Below, in pieces: positions 1,237 to 30,688 of a DNA stretch of 64,000 nt. Under the pieces are notes generated by a model that did no database searches, had not been told where the DNA came from, and saw only the letters and a list, made by a program, of their open reading frames with translations. The DNA comes from Spirochaetaceae bacterium (lineage in GTDB: Bacteria > Spirochaetota > Spirochaetia > DSM-27196 > SKKC01). Within the stretch, counting starts at the first letter, position 1; every line of letters begins with the position of its first letter. The stretch is from NCBI GenBank assembly GCA_007694005.1, contig RECN01000197.1, positions 1 to 64,000 of the forward strand, in the 5' to 3' direction. A program made the translations under genes and the position numbers.

Positions 1237-1273
1237 CGACGTCGTTGCGGTCATCCCGACCGTGGCGACGTCG
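1237..1273 (+). repeat. Long intercistronic stem-loop between solute-binding-protein and permease genes
   Basis: CGACGTCGTTGCGGTC-ATCCC-GACCGTGGCGACGTCG: 16 paired positions, three of them G-T, 5-nt loop, no T-run after it. Confidence 0.8.
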
Positions 1274-22217: not shown

Positions 22218-22898
22218 CTACGCGAGCTCGATGCTGCGGCCGATTGATGTAAGCCAGGCGCTTTTCGGATACAGGTTCAGGGCGCGCTTATAGAACTCAA
22301 CCGAGTAATCGGTCGCACCACTCTCATAATATGCATATGCAAGCAGGCTGCATACGAGAAACTGTTCGAGTTTCGTGATGTTATCGGTACCGCCTGCCTG
22401 TTCCAGAATATCCACGGCGTGGCCTATGTCTCCGCCCGCGAAGGACGGCGCATTCAGGTACCACCCGGCTGCCGCTATGTGAGCCCGGATATTTCCAAAG
22501 TCGAGATCAAGCGCGCGCAGAGCCGCATCCCTGGCCTTCATGCCGTACAGGAACTGAAAGACCGGTCCGCGTATCAGCAGGAGTTGTCCCATCGCGTCCG
22601 ACAGAAGACGCCACGCGTCGCTGAACTCCTGCTGGTCGAGGGTATCAAGAGCGTAGTGGCGCGCCGCCAGGAAGTGCGATGCCGCCGTTCTGTCATGCGA
22701 AACGAAGGTCTGTTGCATACCAAGAATCATTTCGATGCGCCCGAGCCAGTAGGAACGGTCCATGCGGTGTACGATGCCTGCCGCCCTGCTTCGAAGCTCA
22801 AGGAGCTGCGCGTTCAGGGCTGCGAACCCCGGTTCATTCTGAACGAGCAGCTCTTCGGCCTCATTTACCTCGTGAAACGACGCAGGTTTGATCGTCAT
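22218..22898 (-). CDS. Hypothetical TPR-like protein, overlapping the end of rex
   Basis: Start MTIKPASFHEVNEAEELLVQ overlaps the rex stop; DUF2225-like helical repeats. Confidence 0.65.
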   Translation of the reverse strand: MTIKPASFHEVNEAEELLVQNEPGFAALNAQLLELRSRAAGIVHRMDRSYWLGRIEMILGMQQTFVSHDRTAASHFLAARHYALDTLDQQEFSDAWRLLSDAMGQLLLIRGPVFQFLYGMKARDAALRALDLDFGNIRAHIAAAGWYLNAPSFAGGDIGHAVDILEQAGGTDNITKLEQFLVCSLLAYAYYESGATDYSVEFYKRALNLYPKSAWLTSIGRSIELA

Positions 22899-23563
22899 GA
22901 AACGGAATGCAGGGAGCTTTTCAGATTTACCAGATAGAAGAGATTCTCGATTTCGAGACTGATGTTTACGTTCTGCACGATGCACTCGCTTTCGCAACCG
23001 TCATCGGGACACTTACCCGAGCACTTCAGTTCGACCGTCGTAAAGTTCAGAAAGCCCCGAATGCCAGCCTGCATCATGATCTCAAAGACGGACGCAGCCG
23101 ATGTGTCAGGCACCGCAAGGATGCCAACGCGAATACCGTTTTCGACGACGTAGTCGGCAAGCTTCCCGGTATGGAGAACGGGGATGTCGCTGTGACTGCC
23201 GATCCGGCTCTCATCAACATCGAAAGCGGCTTTGATGATTATGCCTTCCTTCTTGAACTCCTGGTACTCCATGAGCGCGCGGCCGATCTTTCCACAACCG
23301 ACGAGAACGACATCCTGTGTTTCGCGTTTTCCGAGTATGCGCTCGAGTTCCGGAATCAGGTAATCAATGGTATAGCCACCGCGTTTGTTTCCGGTAATGC
23401 TGATCATTGAGAAGTCTTTGCGTACAACAGCGGGCGTGACACCGATAGCGTCGCCGAGGTTGTTCGAGAACACTTTCACGAAGCCGAGCGATCTCAGTTT
23501 CTGCAGGACCCGGAGATATCGGGCGAGTCTCAGAATGATGTGCTCGGAAATTGCGTCGGCCAT
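22895..23563 (-). CDS. rex: Redox-sensing transcriptional repressor Rex, with a Cys-rich insertion
   Basis: RYLRVLQKLRSLGFVKVFSNNLGDAIGVTPAVVRKDFSMI winged helix, VVLVGCGKIGRALM Rossmann motif, VQNVNISLEIENLFYLV C-terminus. Confidence 0.92.
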   Translation of the reverse strand: MADAISEHIILRLARYLRVLQKLRSLGFVKVFSNNLGDAIGVTPAVVRKDFSMISITGNKRGGYTIDYLIPELERILGKRETQDVVLVGCGKIGRALMEYQEFKKEGIIIKAAFDVDESRIGSHSDIPVLHTGKLADYVVENGIRVGILAVPDTSAASVFEIMMQAGIRGFLNFTTVELKCSGKCPDDGCESECIVQNVNISLEIENLFYLVNLKSSLHSVS

Positions 23564-23815: not shown

Positions 23816-25639
23816 ATGAAGAACTACAGGTTTTTTGTAACACTCCTGACCGTTCTGCTATTTGCAGCCGCGGCGGCTTTCGCCGGGGGCGGTCGGGAGG
23901 CTCCGGACATCCTCGACGTAGACGAGGAGGGAGCAGTATCTCAGATCGAAGGTCTTCTGGCCATCGATCGTGAAGCAGGCTGGGAAATCGGTGAGCGAGG
24001 CGGGAGTGTAACCCTTGCAACGACCAACGATCCCCGTACATTCAACGACTGGGTAGCAGCAGAGACCTCATCGACCGTCATAACTGCACTCATGCACTCA
24101 GGCATGCTCCGTCGAAACACGCACACCCTTGAGTTCGAGCCCTCCATGGCGGAAGGCTGGGTAGTGTCGGACGACGAGCTTTCTGTGACTTTCACGCTTC
24201 GGCAGGGACTTCGGTTCAGTGACGGCGAACCTATTACCGCCCACGACTTCGTATTCAGCGCTGAATTGGTGCAGAACGAGGAAGTTGGAAGTAACGCCCG
24301 TTCGTCACAGCTTGTCGGTGGCGAAATGGCACAGTGGGAAGCGATCGACGACCGCACCGTTCGCGTAAGCGTTTCGGAGATCTATGCCGGTCTTCTGACC
24401 CTTTCCGGTCTTCCCCCGGCCCCGCGCCACATTCTCGAGCCCATCATCGAGGCAGAAGGCTACGGTCGCATGCAGAGTTTCTGGGGTGTCGACACCGATA
24501 TCTCGACGCTCGTCGGCAGCGGTCCGTACATGGTTGCCGAGTATGTTCCGGGACAGCGCATTGTCCTGAGCCGCAATCCCAACTACTGGGAGAGCGACGA
24601 TGCAGGCACACAGCTTCCCTATCTTGACGAGGTTGTCTTTAGCGTAGTGCCCGATAACGACACAGCCCTGCAGCGCTTTCTCGCAGGAGAAATCGACATC
24701 TACGGGAGTGGCAGCTCCTCGTTCCGCGGCGAAGACTACGCCGTACTCGTAGACCGCCAGGACGAGCTCAGCATCCGTCTCTACGATGTTGGACCGGCTG
24801 CGTCGACGCAGTTTATCACCTTCAACCAGAACTGGGACGGCCCGCTGGACGAGTATCGCCTGGAATGGTTCAACAACAGAACCTTCCGTCAGGCCATGGC
24901 TCACCTCGTAGACCGCCAGACCATCATTGATAACATCGCGTTCGGGTTCGGCTTTCCGCAGTACGCTTTCGTGCCGCAGTTCAGCCCCTTCTACCTGGAA
25001 AGCGCACCTGAACTTGCCTTCCCCTATGATCCTGAAGCCGCAGCGGATCTCCTTGATTCAATCGGCTACGTCGATCAGAATGGCGACGGCTGGCGACAGG
25101 ATCCGGACGGTAACCGAATCGCGTTCACCCTGCAGACCAACTCTGACAACAGTCAGCGCGTCGGTATCGGTGAGCTCTTCTCACAGGAAGCGCGCGAGGT
25201 TGGTATCGAGATTACCTTCCGCCCCGGTGACTTCAACGCCATCGTCGGTCAGCTCACGGGAAGCTTCGACTGGGAAGCGATCATTATCGGACTGACCGGT
25301 AGTGTTGACCCGATCAGCGGTGCCAACGTGTACCCGAGCCGCGGTAACCTGCACATGAGTCACCCGAATCAGGAATCACCGCTGCGTGACTGGGAGCAGG
25401 AAGTCGACGACATCTGGTTCGGACGTGGTGAGCTTAACGCGAACTACACGCTCGACGAGGATGTACGCAGAGCTGGCTACCACAGGTTGCAGGAAATCTG
25501 GATCGAAGAGGTCCCCTGGGTCTTTACCTTTAATCCGGCTGTCATGGTTGCAGCATCTACCGACCTCGGCAATGTAAAGCCACAGCCCATAAACGGCTTT
25601 GAAGCGGTCGCGATCGTATCGCGAATGTTCCGCCGCTAA
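23816..25639 (+). CDS. Peptide ABC transporter solute-binding protein (SBP_bac_5 family)
   Basis: Signal peptide FFVTLLTVLLFAAAAAFA; FTLRQGLRFSDGEPITAHDFVFSAEL, VGSGPYMVAEYVPGQRIVLSRNPNYW; SD AAGGAGG. Confidence 0.95.
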   Translation: MKNYRFFVTLLTVLLFAAAAAFAGGGREAPDILDVDEEGAVSQIEGLLAIDREAGWEIGERGGSVTLATTNDPRTFNDWVAAETSSTVITALMHSGMLRRNTHTLEFEPSMAEGWVVSDDELSVTFTLRQGLRFSDGEPITAHDFVFSAELVQNEEVGSNARSSQLVGGEMAQWEAIDDRTVRVSVSEIYAGLLTLSGLPPAPRHILEPIIEAEGYGRMQSFWGVDTDISTLVGSGPYMVAEYVPGQRIVLSRNPNYWESDDAGTQLPYLDEVVFSVVPDNDTALQRFLAGEIDIYGSGSSSFRGEDYAVLVDRQDELSIRLYDVGPAASTQFITFNQNWDGPLDEYRLEWFNNRTFRQAMAHLVDRQTIIDNIAFGFGFPQYAFVPQFSPFYLESAPELAFPYDPEAAADLLDSIGYVDQNGDGWRQDPDGNRIAFTLQTNSDNSQRVGIGELFSQEAREVGIEITFRPGDFNAIVGQLTGSFDWEAIIIGLTGSVDPISGANVYPSRGNLHMSHPNQESPLRDWEQEVDDIWFGRGELNANYTLDEDVRRAGYHRLQEIWIEEVPWVFTFNPAVMVAASTDLGNVKPQPINGFEAVAIVSRMFRR

Positions 25640-25647
25640 GTCAGGAA

Positions 25648-25773
25648 ACATCACCGGATTTTCCGGTGATGTGCTACCGGCGACGCCTCAGGGTGTCGCC
25701 GGGCCGCAGGTGTGCACGATATAGTGCACACGCGGCAGCGGGGTTCAGAGCGTATCTGAGTCCCGCTGCCGCG
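25648..25773 (+). repeat. Array of four consecutive stem-loops in the SBP-permease intercistronic region
   Basis: HP1 25648-25672 (11 bp, loop TTT); HP2 25677-25702 (11 bp with one G-T, loop TCAG); HP3 25710-25731 (8 bp, loop GATATA); HP4 25731-25773 (19 bp with two G-T, loop GCGTA). Confidence 0.85.
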
Positions 25774-25843
25774 TAACTTCGTCCTGCCTGTCGTCCTTGT
25801 CGATACGTCGGGATCATCCCATGAGGTTCGCGGAAGGGTCTGC

Positions 25844-26968
25844 ATGAAAGCACTGAAACAATTCAACTGGCGACTCACATTCATCCTGGACATACTGGCT
25901 ATCATAATGCTGGTGTCGGGCGGGACGAATCTTTTTTTTGCCGTCGTTCTTACCGAAGGCGCACTCTGGATGGTGAGGCTGCTCTGGCTGTCACCCGCCA
26001 TGCTGTCTTACATTCTGCGACGTCTTGCCCAGATGGTTCCCATCGTTCTGGCCGTTCTCGCGCTCGGATTTGCGCTCATACAGCTGGCCCCGGGAGACAT
26101 GTTTTCACAAATGGAGCTCGATCCGGCGATCAGTCGTGATCAGCTTGAGATGTTTCGGCGGCAGTTCAGGCTGGACCAGCCCTGGTACGCACAGTTTTTC
26201 CAGTATATCTGGAACGCCCTCCAGGGTGATTTCGGATTTTCCCGGACATACCGGGCTCCTGTTTTTGCGATTGTCGGACAGCGCGCGTGGAATACCATAC
26301 TGTTGTCTTTGACGTCGCTGGTGTTTGCCTGGGTCTTAAGCATTCCAATGGGTGTTTTTGCGGCTACAAACCAGTACAACTGGAAAGACCAGTTCGTGTC
26401 GATTTTTGCGTTTTTCGGACTCGCAATCCCGAACTTCTTTCTGGCCTTTCTACTCCTGTATCTGATCTCGTCGACGGGTAACTGGCTGCCGCTTGGCGGC
26501 ATGACGAGTGTCGGCTTCAGAAACATGACAGCGACGCAGCAGTTCTTTGACGTACTCAGACATATGATTGTCCCGGTCGTGGTTATCGGGACGAGCGTCA
26601 TGGCGACGCTCACCCGTGTCATGCGGGGCGAAATGCTCAAGATCATGAACGAACAGTACGTGACTACTGCCCGCGCGAAAGGCCAGACCGAGAACAAGGT
26701 CGTGTACATGCACGCGCTGCGCAACGCCATTAACCCCATGATTACGCTGCTGGGGTTTCAACTCGGTAACGTCATGAGCGGTGCAGCTCTCGTTGAGATC
26801 GTCGTTGCCTGGCCCGGCCTCGGAAGCGTGCTTCTTGAAGCTGTTCTGAGTCAGGACCTGTATCTGGTTGTCGGTAGTCTTGTGTACGGCGTAGTCCTGC
26901 TGGTGATCGGTAATCTTCTCGCCGATATTGCGCTTGCCCTGGTAGACCCGCGAGTGAGGATAAGCTGA
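25844..26968 (+). CDS. Peptide ABC transporter permease, DppB/OppB type with N-terminal extension
   Basis: MLSYILRRLAQMVPIVLAVLALGFALIQLAPGD...; TTARAKGQTENKVVYMHALRNAINPMIT; extra N-terminal TM pair. Confidence 0.93.
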   Translation: MKALKQFNWRLTFILDILAIIMLVSGGTNLFFAVVLTEGALWMVRLLWLSPAMLSYILRRLAQMVPIVLAVLALGFALIQLAPGDMFSQMELDPAISRDQLEMFRRQFRLDQPWYAQFFQYIWNALQGDFGFSRTYRAPVFAIVGQRAWNTILLSLTSLVFAWVLSIPMGVFAATNQYNWKDQFVSIFAFFGLAIPNFFLAFLLLYLISSTGNWLPLGGMTSVGFRNMTATQQFFDVLRHMIVPVVVIGTSVMATLTRVMRGEMLKIMNEQYVTTARAKGQTENKVVYMHALRNAINPMITLLGFQLGNVMSGAALVEIVVAWPGLGSVLLEAVLSQDLYLVVGSLVYGVVLLVIGNLLADIALALVDPRVRIS

Positions 26969-28401
26969 TGTCTGATAAGGAACAGATGGAAATCAAGGAC
27001 GGTGTCTCGGAAGAGATTCTGGAGCATTACGATTCGCAGGGAGACGAGCACGGAGAGTCCATATGGACTATCTATGTACGGCGCTTTCGCAAGCACACGC
27101 TCGGACGCGTCGGTCTCGGAATACTGCTGTTTCTCTACTTCATTGTCATATTTGCCGACTTTCTCGCTCCCTACGATATGACCTACAGCGACAGTCGAAA
27201 GCCGTTTCACGCGCCGAGCCAGATTACCTGGTTCTACACCAACCCGGACGGAGGCCGCGAGTTCAGGCCATTCGTGTGGGAGCACATACAGACGGATATC
27301 GCCCGCCGGACCTATAGAGTCGTACCGCAGCACACCATGCGGGCGATCATCGTACCCTTGCAACCCGGCCGAAGAACGCACCGCTTTGTCGCGGTGGCGA
27401 GTAACCAGATGCAGCGGGAGTCCGAACTTATCGAAGGGGTTCAGCGACAGCTGCGCATACCCGAAGGCGACGAGCGGCTTGTCCGACTGCAACAGGCAAT
27501 TCGGGATCTCGAGGCAGGTGATCGCGTCGATCACGTGGAAGAGTTCGTCCTCGATACGGTGACGATCGACGACGTGGAGCGTGACCGGATCATCTATCTC
27601 GCACGCGGGAACAAGAATTTCGTCGGTATGTTCGAGGAAGGCATACCCTATCGTTTCATGGGTATGTTCGAGACCCGCCGTCACTTCGTGACCTCACGAA
27701 CCGGTGGCTTCTTCCCCTTCGGCGCCGACCGGAACGGCAGAGACCTTCTTTCGCGCCTCATACACGGCTCCCGTGTATCCATGACCGTCGGTCTCATTGG
27801 TGCGGCTATAACTTTCACCCTCGGGCTGACCTTTGGGGGCATCGCCGGATACGCCGGTGGAAAAACCGACAACCTCATAATGCGATTATGTGAGATCGTG
27901 ATCGCGTTCCCTGGTCTGTATCTTCTGCTGACGCTGCGGGCTGCTTTTCCGGCGAACCTCGATTCCATACAGGTATACTTTCTGATTGTTGTCGCGACTG
28001 CGTTTATCGCGTGGGCGAGTTTTGCCCGCATAATTCGCGGTCTGGTGCTTTCAATCAAGACGCAGGACTTTGTCATGAGCGCCCGGACACTCGGTCTGTC
28101 GCACTGGAAGATAATCCGGAAGCACGTGCTTCCGAACACCTTCTCATACTCGATCGTTCAGGTAACCCTGCTTATTCCCTCGTTTATCCTTGGTGAGGCT
28201 GCCTTGAGCCTGCTCGGACTTGGCATCGTAGAACCGCAGGCGAGCTGGGGCAATATGCTTTCAGTTGCCCGTAACTACCGTGTCGTCAGGGACTTTCCCT
28301 GGATACTCTGGCCCGGATTCCTGATCTTTCTCGCAATTCTGGCCTGGAACTTTTTCGGTGACGGTATACGGGACGCAGTCGACCCACGGAGCAAGCACTA
28401 A
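26968..28401 (+). CDS. Peptide ABC transporter permease, DppC/OppC type with enlarged N-terminal extracytoplasmic domain
   Basis: First TM FLYFIVIFADFLAPYD, then about 170 aa before FPFGADRNGRDLLSRLIHGSRVSM; SARTLGLSHWKIIRKHVLPNT. Confidence 0.93.
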   Translation: MSDKEQMEIKDGVSEEILEHYDSQGDEHGESIWTIYVRRFRKHTLGRVGLGILLFLYFIVIFADFLAPYDMTYSDSRKPFHAPSQITWFYTNPDGGREFRPFVWEHIQTDIARRTYRVVPQHTMRAIIVPLQPGRRTHRFVAVASNQMQRESELIEGVQRQLRIPEGDERLVRLQQAIRDLEAGDRVDHVEEFVLDTVTIDDVERDRIIYLARGNKNFVGMFEEGIPYRFMGMFETRRHFVTSRTGGFFPFGADRNGRDLLSRLIHGSRVSMTVGLIGAAITFTLGLTFGGIAGYAGGKTDNLIMRLCEIVIAFPGLYLLLTLRAAFPANLDSIQVYFLIVVATAFIAWASFARIIRGLVLSIKTQDFVMSARTLGLSHWKIIRKHVLPNTFSYSIVQVTLLIPSFILGEAALSLLGLGIVEPQASWGNMLSVARNYRVVRDFPWILWPGFLIFLAILAWNFFGDGIRDAVDPRSKH

Positions 28402-28404
28402 ACT

Positions 28405-29526
28405 ATGGACAACGTACTCGAAGTAAAAGATCTGGCGACGTATTTCTTCATGCACGACTATATCATCCGGGCGGTGGATGGTGTTGACTTTACCTTAGGT
28501 CGTGGGGAGACGCTGGGAATCGTCGGTGAGTCGGGCTGTGGTAAGTCCATCACCTCAATGAGCATGATGCGCCTCGTTCCGGATCCGCCCGGCAGGATCA
28601 TTTCCGGGGAAATTTCTCTGAAAGGCCGTGATATCCTCAAAATCAGCGAAGACGAGATGCGGAAGGTCAGGGGAAACGAGATATCGATGATCTTCCAGGA
28701 GCCCATGACGAGTCTCAACCCTGTGTTTACGATCGGATTTCAGATTTCTGAGGTTCTCCGTCTGCATCGGGATATCGGGAAACAGGACGCGATAAAGGAA
28801 GCGGCGCGTCTTTTGCGCATGGTTGGTATGTCCGATCCTGAAGAACGTGTAAACGAGTACCCCTTTCAGCTTTCGGGCGGGCTGCGCCAGCGGGCAATGA
28901 TTGCAATTGCGATGGCCTGCGAGCCGACCGTCATGATTGCCGACGAACCGACTACAGCTCTCGATGTGACTATACAGGCCCAGATTCTTCGCCTCATGAG
29001 GCAACTGAAAGAAACGAAGGATACCTCGATCGCCTTCATTACACATGACCTCGCGGTCATCGCGAGCTTCACCGACCGGGTTATGGTCATGTACGCTGGC
29101 GTGGCGGTCGAGACCTCGACGGTACACGAGATCTTCAAGAATCCTCTGCACCCCTATACGCAGGGTCTGCTCGGGTCGGTGCCGGTCCTTGGTGACAGGA
29201 AAGTCAACGCAGACGGAAGCAGGAAACTCCTCAATGCGATTCCGGGCTCGCTGCCCGATGCACGAAGGTTTCCCCGGGGGTGTCGCTTTGCCCCGCGCTG
29301 TCCGAAGGCCATGAAAAAGTGCTGGGAGGCGGAACCCGCAAAAGTGGAGGTGGCACCGGGCCATCAGGTCCGATGTTTTCTCCACCATGACGAAGTACGG
29401 GTCATAAGCAAGCGGGACCTTGGAGCGGCCGGTAAGCGCGTTCTTAAGAACCAGCAGAAGATTTCCGGCAAAAAGAAAGGCTCCGCCGACGGCTCCAAGA
29501 CAGATACCCCTATAGCAAGGAACTAG
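28405..29526 (+). CDS. Peptide ABC transporter ATP-binding protein, DppD/OppD type
   Basis: [50 protein letters not shown]. Confidence 0.95.
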
Positions 29527-29530
29527 TACA

Positions 29531-30688
29531 GTGAGCTCGAAAAATGAAACCCTAATAGACATCCGCGGCCTCAAGAAGACGTTCCCGGTCAAAGCCAGCG
29601 TTTTTTCGAGTAAGTCTATCCCTCTGAAAGCTGTCGACGGTGTTAACGTGCAGATCAGGAAAGGCGAAACACTCGGACTTGTCGGTGAGTCTGGCTGCGG
29701 AAAAACGACGGTCGGTCGCTGCGTGCTTCGTCTGTATGAGCCTGACAGGGGACGCGTCTGGCTTGACCCCGACCCGGCCGTTGTGGCGGAGGTCGAGCAG
29801 TTCGACCTCGAGTACGAGCAGCTGCAGAGTCAGCTCGACGACGTCATTGCTGGAGGGCGGATACGCGGCGCCGGGCAAAAGTCGCGGGAACTCAAGAACA
29901 GAATACGAAAGAACCGGAATACCGCCCGTCGCAAGGCAATGCAGCAGGACATCCTGAGCATGGGACCGGATCAGATGCATAAGATGCGTCGAAACGTTCA
30001 GATGGTTTTTCAGGACCCGTGGGCAAGTCTGAATCCACAGATGGTCGTATCAGACATCATCGGCGAAGGTCCTTATACCTATGGAACGCACAAAGGTGCG
30101 CGTCTGAACAAGTGGGTCATGGAGCTGCTCGACAAGGTCGGTCTTCCGCGCAACGCGGCGAACCGCTACCCCCATGAGTTCTCCGGCGGCCAGAGACAGC
30201 GCATCGGAATCGCGCGGGCCCTGGCGCTCACACCGAAGCTGATCGTCTGCGATGAACCCGTCAGTGCCCTGGATGTGTCAGTTCAGGCGCAGATAATCAA
30301 CCTGCTCATCAGTCTGCAGGACGACTTCGAACTGGCGTATCTCTTTATCGCCCACGATCTCAGTGTTGTCCAGTACATCTCCGACCGTGTAGCGGTCATG
30401 TACCTCGGAAAAATTGTCGAGCTCGGTACCGGCGAACAGCTGTACAACAATCCACGACACCCGTATACCATAAGCCTTCTCGGTTCTATTCCGGTCGCGG
30501 ATCCGGAGATCAAGACACAGGAACGCATACTCGAAGGGGATGTGCCGAGTCCGGTAAACCCACCGAAAGGCTGCACCTTCCACCCACGATGTCCGAATCG
30601 AATCGACAGCTGTTCACAGATTATCCCGGTTCTGGAGAAAAGCCAGGACGGACACGTGATAGCCTGCCACAATCCACCCAACGGATGA
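29531..30688 (+). CDS. Peptide ABC transporter ATP-binding protein, DppF/OppF type with coiled-coil insertion
   Basis: GESGCGKTTVGRCVLRLYEP, FSGGQRQRIGIARAL, KGCTFHPRCP; about 60 aa insertion before QMVFQDPWASLNPQM. Confidence 0.94.
   Translation: MSSKNETLIDIRGLKKTFPVKASVFSSKSIPLKAVDGVNVQIRKGETLGLVGESGCGKTTVGRCVLRLYEPDRGRVWLDPDPAVVAEVEQFDLEYEQLQSQLDDVIAGGRIRGAGQKSRELKNRIRKNRNTARRKAMQQDILSMGPDQMHKMRRNVQMVFQDPWASLNPQMVVSDIIGEGPYTYGTHKGARLNKWVMELLDKVGLPRNAANRYPHEFSGGQRQRIGIARALALTPKLIVCDEPVSALDVSVQAQIINLLISLQDDFELAYLFIAHDLSVVQYISDRVAVMYLGKIVELGTGEQLYNNPRHPYTISLLGSIPVADPEIKTQERILEGDVPSPVNPPKGCTFHPRCPNRIDSCSQIIPVLEKSQDGHVIACHNPPNG

Follow-up and report, generated by a model that had tools for sequence, protein, structure and literature searches.

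Tandem hairpins between a binding-protein gene and a permease gene

The DNA analyzed here, referred to as the window, is a 64,000-nt stretch of the draft genome of a bacterium of the Spirochaetaceae. Its second peptide operon, at positions 23816-30688, is of the oligopeptide type by Pfam, with a binding protein, two permeases, and two ATPases. An earlier note, made from the sequence alone, had placed an array of hairpins between the binding-protein and permease genes of this operon, and the Pfam identities of the genes bear this location out. The gap is bounded by the oppA-like stop at 25639 and the oppB start at 25844, and about 125 nt of it is filled by four stem-loops, H1 to H4.

23816..25639, + strand: oppA-like solute-binding protein (SBP), SBP_bac_5, 607 aa (Pfam PF00496, E=2.7e-79)
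25648..25672, + strand: H1, 11 bp, loop TTT, -17.1 kcal/mol, starting 8 nt past the oppA stop
25677..25702, + strand: H2, 11 bp including one G-U, loop TCAG, -22.0 kcal/mol
25710..25731, + strand: H3, 8 bp, loop GATATA
25732..25772, + strand: H4, 18 bp, loop GCGTA, two G-U
25775..25843, + strand: H4-to-oppB spacer with a GGAAGG Shine-Dalgarno-like site near 25831, outside the four hairpins
25844..26968, + strand: oppB-like permease, BPD_transp_1 (Pfam PF00528, E=3.3e-37)
26968..28401, + strand: oppC-like permease (Pfam)
28405..29526, + strand: oppD-like ATPase (Pfam)
29531..30688, + strand: oppF-like ATPase (Pfam)

All four stem-loops lie where the earlier note had put them, with the stems and loops that it described, and folding gives H4 a stem of 18 to 20 bp. 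This range arises because nucleotides 25730-25731 can belong to either H3 or H4: once H3 has formed, 18 bp are left to H4, and the 20-bp form (25730-25774, -38.5 kcal/mol) is available when H3 is open. H4 is the strongest hairpin in the window. Pairing probabilities of representative pairs are 1.0 for H1, H2, and H3 and 0.94-1.0 for H4. The fold check that the earlier note had proposed for the surrounding 261 nt (25600-25860) came out in favor of real structure, at -136 kcal/mol with z = -8.1 and none of 200 shuffles equally stable. With a cutoff of -12 kcal/mol, which leaves out the weaker H3, the gap holds three hairpins, a number reached in 1 of 2,000 dinucleotide shuffles. No other cluster of strong intergenic hairpins turned up in the 449 kb of this genome that were sampled.

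No T-run follows any of the hairpins, as the earlier note had also said. The tails 3' of the strong stems are GCTACCGG, GCCGCAGG, and AACTTCGT, and the next 8 nt after the three strongest stems (H1, H2, and H4) contain 0, 1, and 3 T. A terminator scan found no terminator-like site in the gap, a sigma-70-like scan found no oppB promoter there, and Rfam gave no match for the array, its only match in the window being a tRNA.

Several features of the neighboring sequence deserve mention in their own right. The spacer at 25775-25843 is largely conserved among three species of the genus and could hold a processing site or a Rho-loading site. Occlusion of the oppB ribosome site by the array is unlikely, because H4 stops some 60-70 nt short of it and the site region lies outside the four stable stems. 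The oppB-like permease carries ~50 extra N-terminal residues (...NWRLTFILD...WMVRLLWLSP) ahead of the usual permease start, an extension conserved across the order. Divergent from oppA is a gene for a Rex-like redox repressor (22895-23563; Put_DNA-bind_N and CoA_binding). By codon adaptation, oppA stands at the 99th percentile, but the reference ribosomal proteins do not score above the background median, and since the test is therefore uncalibrated, we do not take it as a sign of high oppA expression.

A hairpin follows most of the sampled binding-protein genes that precede a permease gene

To place the array in its genomic context, ABC permease domains were located, their operons were retrieved, and the junction upstream of each sampled permease was inspected. 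The survey covers a draft of 204 contigs, leaves out about 20 weaker permease matches, and uses plain open reading frame calls as control genes. A binding-protein gene lies upstream at 32 junctions, an assignment that Pfam supports for 31 (the remaining one is C101). Eight of the 32 have fewer than 26 nt between the genes and are without a hairpin of -15 kcal/mol. Among the 24 sampled gaps of at least 26 nt, 23 contain a hairpin of -15 kcal/mol or stronger, with a median stem of 12 bp, a loop of 3 to 5 nt, and a median position 26 nt past the stop codon. Such hairpins occur in 8 of 79 other same-strand gaps of 26-250 nt (Fisher P = 3e-15), in 4 of 22 convergent gaps, and in none of 35 divergent gaps; shuffled copies of the same 24 gaps yield a mean of 0.66 with a hairpin. 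Among the junctions listed within ABC operons, those behind a gene other than that of a binding protein showed no hairpin at this threshold, and at C43, where the permease follows an AraC-type regulator, the 87-nt gap holds no hairpin.

The first peptide operon of the window, with its binding protein at 3-1202 and its permease at 1300-2235, follows the rule with one hairpin in the equivalent gap:

1237..1273, + strand: single 16-bp hairpin, -27.7 kcal/mol

The gap under study is the sole one of the 24 with more than one strong hairpin. The array is thus the most extreme case of a habit of this genome, a hairpin placed directly after the binding-protein gene. Some of the hairpins that make up the rule have T-rich tails, for example, those at L190 (ATTTTTTT) and L180 (TTTTTACA), and ordinary T-run terminators occur elsewhere in the genome. 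Separately, L190 (G000:C138) has a long hairpin (ACGGGCACAAAACCGGTTTAGCAAACCGGTTTTGTGCGTGT) in a divergent promoter region, ahead of a binding-protein gene of the sugar type; it is possibly an operator.

Hairpin sequence turns over while position persists

Across relatives, the sequence of the hairpins changes while their position is retained. Sister species G001 has all four stems, and G002, the third member of the genus, has H2, H3, and H4 and has lost H1; H2 is thus kept in all three, the H3 stem is invariant, and the loops differ between sister species. In H4, four pairs have changed on both sides with pairing retained, and in the alignment 97% of cells are paired, versus 26-47% when partners are slid. 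The compensatory substitutions that the earlier note proposed to seek are therefore present and support selection on pairing. As this covariation comes from three aligned sequences, the gaps of the g2 genus being left out because their alignment was too divergent, and as 8 of 500 shuffles match its level of four pairs, it is modest and is support rather than proof.

Outside the genus, no conservation of the array sequence was seen. In the next genus (G003, G006, and G005), the gap holds two or three long stems whose sequences are different, and at least one strong hairpin is found in all 21 spirochaete oppA-oppB gaps, with two or more in 9. The earlier note's description of a conserved architecture accordingly stands for the position and for the possession of strong hairpins; the four-stem form is seen in two close species only. 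G010, a distant genome that is closed, has 11 gaps of 26 nt or more ahead of a permease gene, counted irrespective of the upstream gene; 10 contain a hairpin, and the tails are T-richer, several of them T-rich. Gaps from other phyla, including Thermus, Trueperaceae, and halophilic bacilli, were counted irrespective of the upstream gene, so that some are not binding-protein junctions; of the 34 that reach 26 nt, 25 have a hairpin. The G005 assembly seems to be broken inside the hairpin gap, with one contig ending 124 nt past the oppA stop (L008, G005:C276) and another starting 41 nt before oppB (L035); strong hairpins at this junction may break assemblies.

Probable protection of the oppA message and rival explanations

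The position of the array, the conservation of pairing without conservation of sequence, and the concentration of hairpins where a binding-protein gene is followed by a permease gene all suggest that subunit ratio is being controlled. Very probably, the array acts by either mRNA protection or termination. Of these, we favor protection, with a probability of about 0.58: the array would be an RNA element that gives more oppA than oppBCDF product by means of a 3' mRNA-protecting block. A polycistronic oppABCDF-type mRNA would be read through the array and then cut or degraded downstream, in its permease part, with RNase Y as the likely endonuclease. Exonucleases working 3' to 5', such as PNPase, would be halted at the stacked hairpins, and the oppA segment would survive. 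Four stems instead of the usual one may give a block that is stronger or less prone to fail, for instance, if H1, beginning just 8 nt past the stop, were melted by a ribosome in the course of termination. That the array acts as RNA, in this direction, by way of exonucleases, and more strongly with four stems than with one is what we infer from its structure and setting.

The model for this reading is the malE-malF junction of Escherichia coli. In decay-regulated ABC operons of that species, the stabilized gene is always that of the binding protein, in the case of malE through 3' structure (PMC5927463). As there, strong stem-loops lie here between the binding-protein and permease genes; the present ones lack a U-tract and would probably shield the mRNA on their 5' side from exonucleases that work 3' to 5'. 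Both PNPase and RNase Y are encoded in this genome, whose assembly is 96% complete. The analogy, first drawn in the earlier note, gains from the strong genome-wide association of hairpins with these gaps. Unlike E. coli, this bacterium has no RNase E/G that could be found in the assembly, and its array consists of four hairpins of unique sequence in place of the repeated sequences known as REPs.

The main competitor, which we regard as distinctly less probable though a serious candidate, is a leaky internal transcription terminator, at which polymerase would stop in a fraction of passes and so lower oppBCDF relative to oppA. In Ruminiclostridium, stem-loops that follow binding-protein genes have been shown to act in this way (Wu et al. 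2022, PMC9045158). The likeness to those internal terminators of Ruminiclostridium/Clostridium is considerable, as there, too, most ABC importer operons of a single genome have a hairpin behind the binding-protein gene, with long GC-rich stems, low U content, and no shared sequence (PMC9045158). Low-U tracts were accepted in that study, and some rule hairpins of this genome, like others in G010, are T-tailed, so the family, the array included, may act by termination. The operons of Wu et al. have single stem-loops without additional structures (PMC9045158), unlike the four in tandem described here, with almost no U after them. Protection is preferred because the array has neither a U-tract nor a terminator-like site while T-run terminators exist elsewhere in the genome, so that it departs from the local norm, and because PNPase and RNase Y are present.

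Two further proposals of the earlier note fared less well. It is very unlikely that the array is a regulated attenuator, riboswitch, or protein-bound leader that adjusts oppB to some signal. In principle, the region could adopt either of two folds, as a GCGGC is contested by H3, extended with GCCGC, and by the base of H4, but the alternative, in which H3 is lengthened at the expense of the H4 base, has a probability of about 6%. No U-tract terminator or antiterminator partner was seen, there is no Rfam match or sequence conservation outside the genus, and the equivalent gap of sister operons has one plain hairpin. We consider it just as improbable that the array is the source of a processed small RNA of about 130 nt with targets in trans. 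Once processed, a stable and structured piece of RNA would probably last, and the H3 stem is invariant in three species, but there is no conserved single-stranded seed, the loops vary between sister species, and Rfam and sequence conservation outside the genus again give no support. The precedent, OppZ of Vibrio cholerae, belongs to the same type of operon, oppABCDF, in which oppA and oppB are expressed discoordinately; it arises from the 3' end of oppF and pairs at oppB, unlike a mechanism of gap hairpins (PMC7398697).

REPs typically sit between genes as palindromes, but an origin of the array in REP/BIME-like repeats or mobile-element remnants is rejected, as the sequences are not shared (no second copy in the genome and no common 10-mer among 27 hairpins from SBP gaps) and turn over while position persists.

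Significance

The kind of element considered here is already known from malE-malF and from Wu et al. (2022, PMC9045158), and its tandem form is a variation on that kind that brings in no new mechanism. Intercistronic stem-loops are also said to set subunit ratios in the cip-cel operon of Clostridium cellulolyticum, an example of selective RNA processing and stabilization (PMC4423207). The cip-cel operon differs from the present one in comprising cellulosome genes and in having mapped processing sites. What sets the present case apart is that four unrelated hairpins stand in tandem, that hairpins cover nearly all of the sampled importer operons of one genome, and that hairpin number changes among close relatives. 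A literature search that covered few subscription journals found no paper on tandem nonrepeat hairpins at a binding-protein/permease junction and none on a rule of hairpins in such gaps in spirochaetes.

A bolder proposal, which we regard as rather doubtful, is that hairpin number is a tuning knob in this spirochaete order, with one hairpin for each importer operon and further stems of new sequence gained by the operon in which demand for binding protein is highest. If true, this would give a graded block, the strength of which evolves by gain and loss of whole stems.

An importer needs far more binding protein than membrane partner, yet a single operon encodes both, and one draft genome offers a hairpin answer in 23 of 24 sampled importer operons with room for it. 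Among related species, this junction carries four, three, two, or one hairpin, a natural series in which to ask whether the ratio is set by the number of stems or by their stability, and the same series bears on the question of decay versus termination in bacteria that have RNase Y and in which no RNase E/G is found.
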